DNA from: Rhizobium leguminosarum
Lineage (GTDB): Bacteria > Pseudomonadota > Alphaproteobacteria > Rhizobiales > Rhizobiaceae
Length of the DNA stretch: 64,000 nt
Direction of reading: 5' to 3'
Assembly: GCF_001679785.1 (NCBI RefSeq)
Contig: NZ_CP016286.1
Span: 4,536,501-4,600,500 of the forward strand
Under the pieces are notes generated by a model that was given only the letters and a program-made list of their open reading frames with translations, was not told the DNA's origin and made no database searches. The first letter of the stretch is position 1. Every line of letters begins with the position of its first letter. Both the position numbers and the translations under genes were made by a program. This document shows, one piece after another, positions 13,459 through 16,431 of the stretch.

Positions 13459-14355
13459 ATGTCGAGTCACAACGCAGCCCAATACAACGCGGCAAAGTCA
13501 GGCACCTTCAAGATCGGCGGCGATATCGAGATCAACCGTCTCGGTTTCGGCGCCATGCGCGTCACCGGCAAGGGCATCTGGGGCGAGCCTTCCGATCATG
13601 CCGAATCCATCCGCACGCTGAAGCGCCTGCCGGAACTCGGAGTCAACTTCATCGATACGGCCGATTCCTACGGCCCCGATGTCTCCGAATGGCTGATCAA
13701 GGAAGCGCTGCATCCCTATGGCGGCAAGTCTGTCATCGCCACCAAGGGTGGCCTGACCCGCCACGGCCCCGATATCTGGCTGCCCGTCGGCCGTCCGGAA
13801 TATCTGATCCAGCAGGCGCATAAGAGCTTGCGCAATCTCGGCGTCGAGCAGATCGATCTCTGGCAGCTGCATCGGATCGATCAGAAGGTGCCGGCCAAGG
13901 AACAGTTCGATGCGATCAAATCGCTGCTCGATACCGGCCTCATCCGCCATGCGGGTCTGAGCGAAGTATCCGTTGCCGACATCGAGGCCGCCTCGAAGCA
14001 CTTCAAGGTCGCGACCGTCCAGAACCGCTACAATCTCGTCGACCGCACCAGCGAGGACGTGCTCGATTATTGCACCAAGCACAATATCGGCTTCATCCCG
14101 TGGTATCCGCTGGCAGCCGGCGACCTCGCCAAGCCGGGCTCGCTGCTCGATACCATCGCCAAAAAGCACAATGCAGCACCCAGCCAGATCGCACTCGCCT
14201 GGGTGCTCAAGCGCAGCCCGGTCATGCTGCCGATTCCCGGCACCTCCAAGGTCAAGCATCTCGAGGAAAACGTCGCCGCCGTCGACATCACCCTCTCGAA
14301 CGAGGAATTCTCCTCCCTCGACGCCGAGGGAAGCAAGGTCTTCAAGGCTGCTTGA
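13459..14355 (+). CDS. Aldo/keto reductase
   Basis: A 298-residue TIM-barrel NADPH oxidoreductase. The catalytic tetrad is visible: Asp and Tyr in [11 protein letters not shown], Lys in VIATKGGL, and His in LWQLHRID. The C-terminal NADP-binding part contains [16 protein letters not shown]. The closest general type is the YajO/oxidoreductase group acting on aldehydes or ketones; the substrate is unknown. It starts after GAGAGGAAAGACC. It stands alone, followed by repeats. Confidence 0.9.
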
Positions 14356-14489
14356 TTTGCTGTGACCGCTGCGCCGCTCACCGGGGTCGAGCCGCTCGTT
14401 TCGACCCGTCCTTAGGCCCCCGTGAAAAGGGGGCGAGGGGACGTGCCATGCGAGAGGTGGCGAGAAACGGAAAGGTCGCGGCATATCGT

Positions 14490-14716
14490 CTTCTCCCCTC
14501 GGGGAGAAGGTGCCGGCAGGCGGATGAGGGGGCCACACGGCATGCCCTTCCCGTAATAACCTATCCTGCGACCCCGACGATAACACCGTGCCCCGCCCTG
14601 AACACGATCGAGACAATGCCGGCACGGTGGAACCCCGTATGAGCGTTGTTGGAAAGACCGGCATCGCCGGCCCCGTCATCCGCCCTACGGGCACCTTCTC
14701 CCCGAGGGGAGAAGAG
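14490..14716. repeat. RIME-type mosaic repeat, composite copy 1
   Basis: About 227 bases bounded by two inverted hairpins, CTTCTCCCC/GGGGAGAAG at 14490-14509 and at 14695-14714. Each is joined to a GCCGGCAGGCGGATGAGG-like or GCGGATGACGGGGCC-like arm. The interior matches the composite copy at 19757-19978 in the opposite direction. It is a rhizobial intergenic mosaic element; no coding capacity is seen. Confidence 0.8.
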
Positions 14717-14902
14717 GGAATCGAGAGGTCGCGGAATGTCCGGAGCAGAGAGGCCGCAACTTTCGGCATATTTTTGACCATCCGGTCAAACTTGCTGCAA
14801 AATGAGGCGAAGGCCTGTTATTTTGAGGGCAAGCCTTGCATGCAGCGCATTGCTGCATTGCGGTATTTTCGCTGTTCCGAATCAAAAGAATTGGCTATTA
14901 CT

Positions 14903-15025
14903 ATCTTCGTAAGCAGCGCACTCCTCCTCCCAGCGCTCTTACATCGGACTGACAACACTCCTCCTCCCAGTTGTCAGTCAGGATCAAGAGCCCGGCGCAC
15001 CTCCTCCCGCGTCGGGCTTTTTTCT
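14903..15025 (+). ncRNA. Small RNA with three CUCCUCC loops (alpha-r14 / NfeR1-like)
   Basis: Three consecutive hairpins each expose a CCTCCTCCC-type loop. Hairpin 1: AGCGC (14915-14919) with GCGCT (14933-14937). Hairpin 2: CTGACAAC (14949-14956) with GTTGTCAG (14970-14977). Hairpin 3: AGCCCGGCGC (14989-14998) with GCGTCGGGCT (15009-15018), followed by seven T, which makes it a terminator. The loops are complementary to Shine-Dalgarno sequences. This layout is what is known for the alpha-r14 family (NfeR1 in Sinorhizobium), a trans-acting regulator of transporter mRNAs. The 5' end is estimated from the usual length of about 120 nt. Confidence 0.85.
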
Positions 15026-15153: not shown

Positions 15154-16431
15154 ATGATCGGCAAAAGACGCGCCCCGCGCGCGGCCCTGACAGGTCTTCT
15201 GATGGCAACGATGGTGCTTTCCGGCTGCGGCGGCAGGCCGGTCGGTGTCATGCAGGCGGCCGGCACCGTGCCGCCCGGCACCTCCAAGGTCGACCTGCTC
15301 GTCGCGACGACGCGTGCCGCCGACGACAATCCTGCCGTGCTTTTCTCCGGCGAACGCGGCACAGGGCTCGCCGTCAATGCCGTCGATGTCTCGATCCCGC
15401 CGGAAGCCAATCGCAAGGCCGGCCAGGTGCAATGGCCAAGCCGCCTGCCGGCCGATCCGCTGCGCGATTTCGTCACCGTCTCCGTCGATCCGCTGGAAGG
15501 CGAGCGGGCCGGCGAGACCTGGCTGAAGACCCACATGCCGAAGAGCCGCCGGGTACTGGTCTTCGTCCACGGCTTCAACAATCGTTATGAGGATGCCGTC
15601 TACCGCTTCGCGCAGATCGTCCACGATTCACATGCCGACGTTGCCCCCGTGGTCTTCACCTGGCCGTCGCGCGGCAGCATCTTCGATTATAATTACGACA
15701 AGGAAAGCACCAACTATTCCCGCGATGCGCTGGAGGAACTGCTGACCCGCACCGCCGCCAATCCGGCTGTCAGCGACATCACCATCATGGCGCATTCGAT
15801 GGGCACCTGGCTGACCGTCGAAGCGCTCAGGCAGATGGCGATCCGCAAAGGTCATGTCGCACCGAAGATCAACAATGTCATCCTTGCCTCGCCGGATCTC
15901 GATGTCGATGTCTTCGGCCGCCAGTTCGCGAGCCTCGGCAAGGAAAGGCCGCACTTCACCATATTCGTCTCGCAGGACGATCGGGCTCTGGCGCTGTCGC
16001 GGCGCATCTCCGGCAATGTCGACCGGCTCGGCCAGATCGATCCTTCCGTCGAACCCTATCGCAGCAAGCTCGAGGCGGCCGGCATCACCGTACTCGACCT
16101 CACCAAGCTCAAGGGCGGCGACCGGCTGAACCACGGCAAGTTCGCCGAAAGCCCTGAAGTGGTGAAGCTGATCGGCGACCGGCTGATTGCCGGCCAGACG
16201 ATCACCGATTCCAATGTCGGCCTCGGTGAGGCCGTCGGCGCCGTTGCGATGGGCGCTGCCCAGACCGCCGGCAGTGCCGTCAGTGTTGCCGTCAGCACGC
16301 CGATAGCGATCTTCGATCCGCGGACCCGGCGCAACTACGACGCCCAGCTGAAGCGTCTCGGCCAGTCGATGAACAATACCGTCGGTTCGGTCGGCGACAG
16401 CGTCGGCGCCGGCCTGCCGGCAAGCCAGTAA
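15154..16431 (+). CDS. Lipoprotein alpha/beta hydrolase (DUF900 type)
   Basis: A 425-residue protein with a lipoprotein signal (LSGC near residue 22). The hydrolase core has VLVFVHGFNNRYEDA (oxyanion loop), the nucleophile elbow ITIMAHSMGTWL with Ser in AHSMG, ASPDLDVDVF with a candidate acid, and a late His in DRLNHGKFA. DUF900 hydrolases of this type are found in many alphaproteobacteria; the substrate is unknown. The ATG at 15154 follows GGAG. It lies about 130 bases downstream of the small RNA terminator and has its own upstream region. Confidence 0.85.
   Translation: MIGKRRAPRAALTGLLMATMVLSGCGGRPVGVMQAAGTVPPGTSKVDLLVATTRAADDNPAVLFSGERGTGLAVNAVDVSIPPEANRKAGQVQWPSRLPADPLRDFVTVSVDPLEGERAGETWLKTHMPKSRRVLVFVHGFNNRYEDAVYRFAQIVHDSHADVAPVVFTWPSRGSIFDYNYDKESTNYSRDALEELLTRTAANPAVSDITIMAHSMGTWLTVEALRQMAIRKGHVAPKINNVILASPDLDVDVFGRQFASLGKERPHFTIFVSQDDRALALSRRISGNVDRLGQIDPSVEPYRSKLEAAGITVLDLTKLKGGDRLNHGKFAESPEVVKLIGDRLIAGQTITDSNVGLGEAVGAVAMGAAQTAGSAVSVAVSTPIAIFDPRTRRNYDAQLKRLGQSMNNTVGSVGDSVGAGLPASQ

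Follow-up and report, generated by a model that had tools for sequence, protein, structure and literature searches.

An ar14 Small RNA in Rhizobium leguminosarum

The window considered here, i.e., the whole 64,000-nt stretch of Rhizobium leguminosarum DNA that was analysed, carries a copy of the ar14 small RNA (sRNA) at positions 14903-15024 of the plus strand, referred to below as the window copy. The Rfam covariance model of the family (RF02344) spans this segment end to end, from model position 1 to 123, with 117.1 bits and an E-value of 4.9e-21, the curated cut-off of the model being 58.8 bits; the covariance search proposed by a first-pass annotation of the locus has thus confirmed its alpha-r14 family call. 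When folded, the stretch 14903-15025 reaches -50.7 kcal/mol, as compared with a mean of -25.9 kcal/mol for shuffled sequences (z = -7.5), and none of the 200 shuffles was equally stable. The structure displays the traits that describe ar14, namely three hairpins with variable stems and the motif CCUCCUCCC in each loop. Hairpin 1 lies at 14909-14942, hairpin 2 at 14947-14979, and hairpin 3, which joins a terminator-like stem (14986-15021) to a T run, at 14986-15023, all on the plus strand. The loop cores, CCTCCTCCC in the window copy, occupy 14923-14931, 14960-14968 and 15000-15008, with spacings of 37 and 40 nt, and the stem of hairpin 3 continues into six Ts (15018-15023). Hairpin 3 is missing from a simple terminator scan because its loop of 10 nt exceeds the 3-8 nt that the scan permits. 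The fold, the covariance model and the T run therefore agree, in both coordinates and anatomy, with the succession of three anti-Shine-Dalgarno (aSD) loops ending in a terminator that had been described from the sequence alone.

The window copy is intergenic. Upstream of it, at 13459-14355 on the plus strand, an aldo/keto reductase gene (PF00248) is found, and downstream, at 15154-16431 on the same strand, a gene for a DUF900 alpha/beta hydrolase (PF05990), probably a lipoprotein, as its N-terminus contains an LSGC that was judged by eye to be a lipobox. Around the 25 copies assigned to the same orthology group as the window copy (group 2, see the next section), the reductase is encountered near 18 and the hydrolase near 19, and at least one of the two within the sequence stretches around 20 of the 25 loci. 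A 32-nt inverted repeat (arms 14489-14520 and 14684-14715) also precedes the sRNA. It belongs to a high-copy intergenic repeat, with at least 98 matches to 14485-14735 in the same genome, self included, and may be a RIME. Matches to this repeat lie upstream of the sRNA locus in only 4 of the 25 group-2 copies, window included, and the repeat is therefore not part of the locus. RIME copies and a lipoprotein gene had both been proposed as a specific local context; the description as a lipoprotein gene is a fair one.

The window copy is a genuine, conserved and unremarkable representative of an sRNA family that is already known. The ar14/NfeR1 family, its multicopy state and its variable hairpin number (PMC3927594, PMC7143759), as well as its aSD mechanism, are already in print, so that the kind of RNA is known. 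The new elements are the orthology group to which the window copy belongs, a promoter box that resembles that of NfeR1 and keeps a fixed position, and the way in which the copies sort by promoter. A literature search with few subscription papers within reach found no publication on this locus, and the accessible text of an RNA-seq study of R. etli (PMC4167512) contains no named ncRNA attributable to it.

Copies of ar14 and Their Orthology Groups

The genome that contains the window has 14 ar14 matches at E-values up to 10, nine of which, on contigs C1, C2, C4, C5 and C7, pass the cut-off. A match at E 0.001 was obtained in 33 of 41 genomes (this one, 24 of the genus and 16 of the order). The cut-off was passed in 26 of the 41, comprising the 25 genomes of the genus and a single one of the order. 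In a sample of the family, 137 of 151 genomes carry a match that passes the cut-off. Carriage of an ar14 copy by phages was dropped as an idea when a phage collection gave no match to the window copy, and so was similarity to plasmids over the whole copy, since 314 plasmid records match but none over more than 80% of the 251-base query.

The 130 copies above the cut-off in the 25 genomes of the genus (2-9 per genome; weaker matches do not enter the copy tables) were clustered by their flanking DNA. Seven large clusters resulted, namely group 0 (27 copies in 22 genomes), group 1 (25 in 25), group 2 (23 in 23), group 3 (22 in 22), group 4 (9 in 9), group 5 (7 in 6) and group 6 (5 in 5). The window copy falls into group 2. 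In two genomes no copy had clustered with this group, and their copies L012 and L030 were added to it on the basis of sRNA and promoter sequence instead of flanks, which completed group 2 to 25 members. Eight of the 130 copies, in small clusters 9-13, are left out of the group counts of loops, identities and promoter motifs. The window copy is 78-99% identical to the other 24 members of group 2 and represents a separate lineage that is kept across the genus.

The remaining copies of the same genome show some diversity of their own. Two of them, L006 on C2 and L007 on C5, do not differ in their sRNA and hardly differ in their upstream DNA although they lie on separate replicons, and go back to a recent duplication. 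Two degenerate ar14 sequences below the cut-off, L136 (C1:4212358, 42 bits) and L137 (C5:231259, 35 bits), have kept the stems but have damaged loops. L003 (C5), L005 (C7) and L008 (C4) possess four hairpins. The additional one, on the 5′ side some 40 nt ahead of the Rfam start, presents the same loop, and the promoter box of these copies stands further up by one hairpin unit. When up to two mismatches are allowed, this fourth hairpin with the same loop is present in every copy of groups 0 (27/27), 5 (7/7) and 6 (5/5).

Outside of the genus, hairpins with the same aSD loop motif are known from RNAs of the RS0680a type, also called CcsR or 'cuckoo' RNAs. RS0680a itself, from Rhodobacter sphaeroides, a member of another bacterial order, is linked to stress and contains two hairpins per unit (PMC3927594). 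The four-hairpin architecture was rejected as a novelty, as members of the SmelA099 type are described in section 2.7 of the same article; they share the loop motif and the hairpin module with the window copy and differ from its three hairpins by one more at the 5′ end.

Conservation of the Stems and Loops

The structure was examined in the 25 group-2 copies, 21 of them distinct. Eight of the 33 stem pairs have changed on both sides (2 of 10 in hairpin 1, 2 of 10 in hairpin 2 and 4 of 13 in hairpin 3), and 99.6% of the 693 cells remain paired. The covariation score amounts to 0.233, as compared with 0.124 in shuffles, none of 500 of which reaches 0.233, and no more than 0.062 once the pairing partners are shifted. 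In their number of further pair types, the group-2 copies do not exceed the shuffles (407/500).

Each of the 25 copies of group 2 has exact cores in its three loops, which holds for no other large group. Over the 152 copies compared, including 22 from Sinorhizobium, cores 1, 2 and 3 are exact in 139, 148 and 99, respectively, and all three in 95. Loop 3 has drifted in the sister groups, being exact in 5/25 copies of group 1, 9/22 of group 3 and 0/9 of group 4. Hence, the free change of the loops that the first-pass annotation had named as evidence against its reading is absent at this locus, although loop 3 does show it in the sister groups. Between copies of the same genome (250 sampled pairs), stems and spacers are 73% alike and the upstream 100 nt 59%, whereas the loops are 96% alike, which indicates that the loops are what selection holds. 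For one locus across genomes (400 sampled pairs), the values are 86%, 73% and 99%, respectively.

Could the window copy be a conserved but poorly expressed spare, its loops being kept by homogenisation or by selection under rare conditions? Nine copies share this genome, and a Northern blot detected only one of the six ar14 copies of S. meliloti (PMC7143759), both of which would suit such an explanation. In addition, groups 1 and 2 are slightly more alike within a genome than across genomes (0.744 versus 0.736, with 40 of 2000 permutations as high). However, the permutations give no sign of exchange between groups 2 and 3 (687/2000) or 1 and 3 (1940/2000), and gene conversion as the source of the equal loops was set aside as a weak sign restricted to groups 1-2. 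Moreover, the three perfect loops in 25/25 copies are, among the large groups, a property of group 2 only, and the promoter box described below is in place in 23 of these 25 copies, all of which argues against a mere spare and makes this explanation improbable.

The Promoter Region

A candidate box of the VtlR/LsrB type, an exact match to GCAT-N3-TG-N3-T, is located at 14847-14859 on the plus strand, 56 nt before Rfam position 1. Confirmation of this VtlR box comes from Brucella, and it has also been proposed for Agrobacterium. In S. meliloti, the counterpart of VtlR is LsrB, and the regulons of LsrB/VtlR differ among species (PMC7486931). The positional conservation of the element was noticed before the published box was matched to the promoter. 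The box is found at -55 to -57 in 23/25 copies of group 2 and 24/25 of group 1, and at -90 to -95 in groups 0 (25/27), 5 (6/7) and 6 (5/5), that is, about 37 nt further up in 36 of the 39 four-hairpin copies. This shift equals one hairpin unit; the spacing of the box is thus counted from where the RNA starts, which ties it to the start of transcription. None was found in the 150 nt upstream of groups 3 (0/22), 4 (0/9) and 8 (0/2), nor in a control set of 150-nt stretches taken downstream of the copies of the genus (0/122). In Sinorhizobium, 7 of 22 copies have the box, four of them at -61 and three at -94.

Two further motifs are known from the nfeR1 promoter of S. meliloti, an LsrB motif (TGCA-N6-GCAT) and an NtrC motif (TGC-N11-GCA) (PMC10746234). 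The former is exact in the window copy (14837-14850, plus strand) and in a total of 7/25 group-2 copies. At 14793-14809 (plus strand), the window copy has a weak NtrC-like TGC-N11-GCG, which departs from the published motif in a single letter. Its relaxed form, TGC-N11-GC[AG], occurs at -105 to -115 in 13/25 group-2 copies, and the exact one in 0/25 of them at those positions. A possible -35/-10 pair, CTGTTC and CTATTA 17 nt apart (14872-14900, plus strand), was picked out by eye after the published CTTAGAC-N17-CTATAT (PMC10746234). A promoter scan placed no sigma-70 site where one would be expected for the window copy, and a search of a collection of genome contigs with the literal -35/-10 pattern gave 0 matches. 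A similar search with a pattern combining the LsrB motif and the loop yielded 95 stretches; among 80 of these, 11 named ones were compared closely.

Relation to the nfeR1 Gene of Sinorhizobium

The gene nfeR1 of S. meliloti (Smr14C2, SmelC397) belongs to the same family as the window copy, which it resembles in length, in its three hairpins with CCUCCUCCC per loop, in its terminator and in the LsrB-type motif upstream. In S. meliloti 4H41, the ar14 copy L180 has TGCA-N6-GCAT, TGC-N11-GCA at -116 and CTATAT, as published for nfeR1, and this copy is the downstream one of two ar14 copies 147 nt apart (L264, L267). In strain 1021, SmelC398 (217 nt) is followed in the same order, after 151 nt, by SmelC397, i.e., NfeR1 (124 nt) (PMC2873474). 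From this we infer that L267 corresponds to nfeR1 and L264 to SmelC398. Each of the four Sinorhizobium genomes searched contains the tandem pair, in the neighbourhood of genes for a DUF1127 protein and a GidA-family (trmFO-type) protein; in this genus, a GidA-family gene accompanies 8 of the 22 copies (L261, L262, L264, L266-L268, L272 and L273).

One explanation of the locus would be that the window copy is the nfeR1 orthologue and performs the same work as in S. meliloti, that is, a double-negative loop with NtrBC. It belongs to the same family, has the LsrB-type motif and the box in its promoter, and might pair with ntrB (see below). However, nfeR1 is the second copy of a tandem pair beside GidA-family and DUF1127 genes in the four Sinorhizobium genomes, and in Rhizobium GidA-family hits accompany 18/22 group-3 loci and none of the copies in groups 0, 1, 2 and 4. 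The neighbours of the window copy, the reductase and the DUF900 gene, differ from this setting, and none of the 22 Sinorhizobium copies tested occupies a corresponding position. The exact NtrC motif likewise separates it from nfeR1, as it is found in 0/25 copies of group 2 versus 13/25 of group 1 (at -109 to -111), and the LsrB motif, although exact in the window copy, is shared by the 7/25 group-2 members already mentioned. The box itself stands at -61 in NfeR1 and at -56 in the window copy. The two RNAs are about 70% identical. By position, the window copy and the nfeR1 gene of S. meliloti are not orthologues, and the explanation as a whole appears rather unlikely.

The earlier match to NfeR1 thus stands for the family and for the NfeR1-like promoter, but not for identity with nfeR1. 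Consequently, with another locus and an identity of only about 70%, the roles of nfeR1 in osmoadaptation and nodulation cannot simply be transferred to the window copy.

Group 3, which had been considered as the nfeR1 orthologue, was reassigned to the tandem partner SmelC398 on the basis of the pair order in Sinorhizobium and the published coordinates. Its best member is 76% identical to the window copy (L004) and belongs to the same family, but group 3 differs in its GidA-family and DUF1127 neighbours and in having no VtlR box within 150 nt. SmelC398 has a leader before its hairpins within the 217-nt transcript (PMC2873474), and group 3 is likewise leadered, unlike the window copy: upstream of L004 (1501-1619, minus strand), a folding leader of about 70-90 nt replaces the usual spacing to the promoter, a trait common to the group-3 copies. 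DUF1127 was discarded as a marker of group 3, as its hits lie near 22/22 group-3 loci and also near 27/27 group-0 loci. In Rhizobium, no group-3 copy was seen to have a second one above the cut-off within 1.5 kb. A weak 32-bit hit behind L004, together with a motif before it, had suggested a decayed nfeR1 in Rhizobium; this idea was dropped once the motif proved to be the promoter region of a DUF1127 gene, which is also present in Sinorhizobium beside an intact nfeR1. An element of the GCATAGGTG/GCATGGGTG type precedes the small DUF1127 gene, about 250-335 nt downstream of the sRNA, at 22/22 group-3 loci. It fits the VtlR box, and the same has been reported for an Agrobacterium small protein gene (PMC7486931).

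A Probable Silencer with Three Equal Loops

It has been established in S. meliloti, by EMSA and reporter assays, that LsrB activates nfeR1 and that the aSD loops silence; any of the three loops of NfeR1 pairs with the start regions of mRNAs in a Hfq-independent manner (PMC10746234). The loops imitate the sequence with which the ribosome itself reads mRNAs, which enables them to block start sites on other messages. In the case of the window copy, LsrB (VtlR) would activate transcription from about 14903, giving rise to an RNA of about 122 nt ended by hairpin 3. Any of its three equal CCUCCUCCC loops could then pair with Shine-Dalgarno (SD) regions and block the entry of ribosomes on several mRNAs. 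One of these might be ntrB, whose start region in the same genome, AGCCGGGAGGCGGCATG, contains GGGAGG and is predicted to form duplexes of -16.6 kcal/mol with loop a and -17.8 kcal/mol with loop c. Among 37 window ORFs, an uncurated background with each ORF taken at its best start, no more than 2 pair with loop a more strongly than ntrB, although such a duplex is not specific, as any strong SD would score. For the window copy, ntrB is a plausible target.

Three equal loops had been interpreted as a sign of either titration or multi-target binding. The latter is the published mechanism of NfeR1 (PMC10746234). A titrator would soak up SD-like RNA or a protein instead of silencing mRNAs, and three equal loops would indeed suit a sponge; nevertheless, three-loop mutants lose reporter silencing in S. 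meliloti (PMC10746234), nothing in the present data supports titration, and we regard it as very improbable. The most likely function of the window copy, judging from its sequence, is that of an LsrB/VtlR-activated silencer that occludes SD sites. Beside the computed structure, its covariation, the fixed loops and the fixed position of the VtlR/LsrB box, the best overall explanation is that the locus encodes an ar14 (NfeR1/'cuckoo') member, one of nine copies above the cut-off, with a genus-wide lineage of its own and acting as an LsrB/VtlR-activated aSD silencer (probability about 0.85).

Implications for the ar14 Family in Rhizobium

The sister copies have the same loops behind other promoters, which would provide one silencing payload with several triggers. 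As a tentative proposal, to which we give somewhat less than even odds, the ar14 copies of one Rhizobium cell may constitute a single aSD payload on separate control lines, with groups 0, 1, 2, 5 and 6 driven by VtlR/LsrB versus the box-less groups 3, 4 and 8. The window copy may then be the main LsrB-driven, NtrC-free member, sharing or replacing the work of NfeR1 in Rhizobium, a genus in which no tandem nfeR1 copy was seen. In S. meliloti, nitrogen control and symbiosis are known to be tuned by this family. That one genome combines the same loops with different promoters in nine copies, and that the textbook gene is absent from its place in Rhizobium, is a warning against transferring NfeR1 phenotypes by name, and the reason for keeping so many equal copies becomes a directly testable question.
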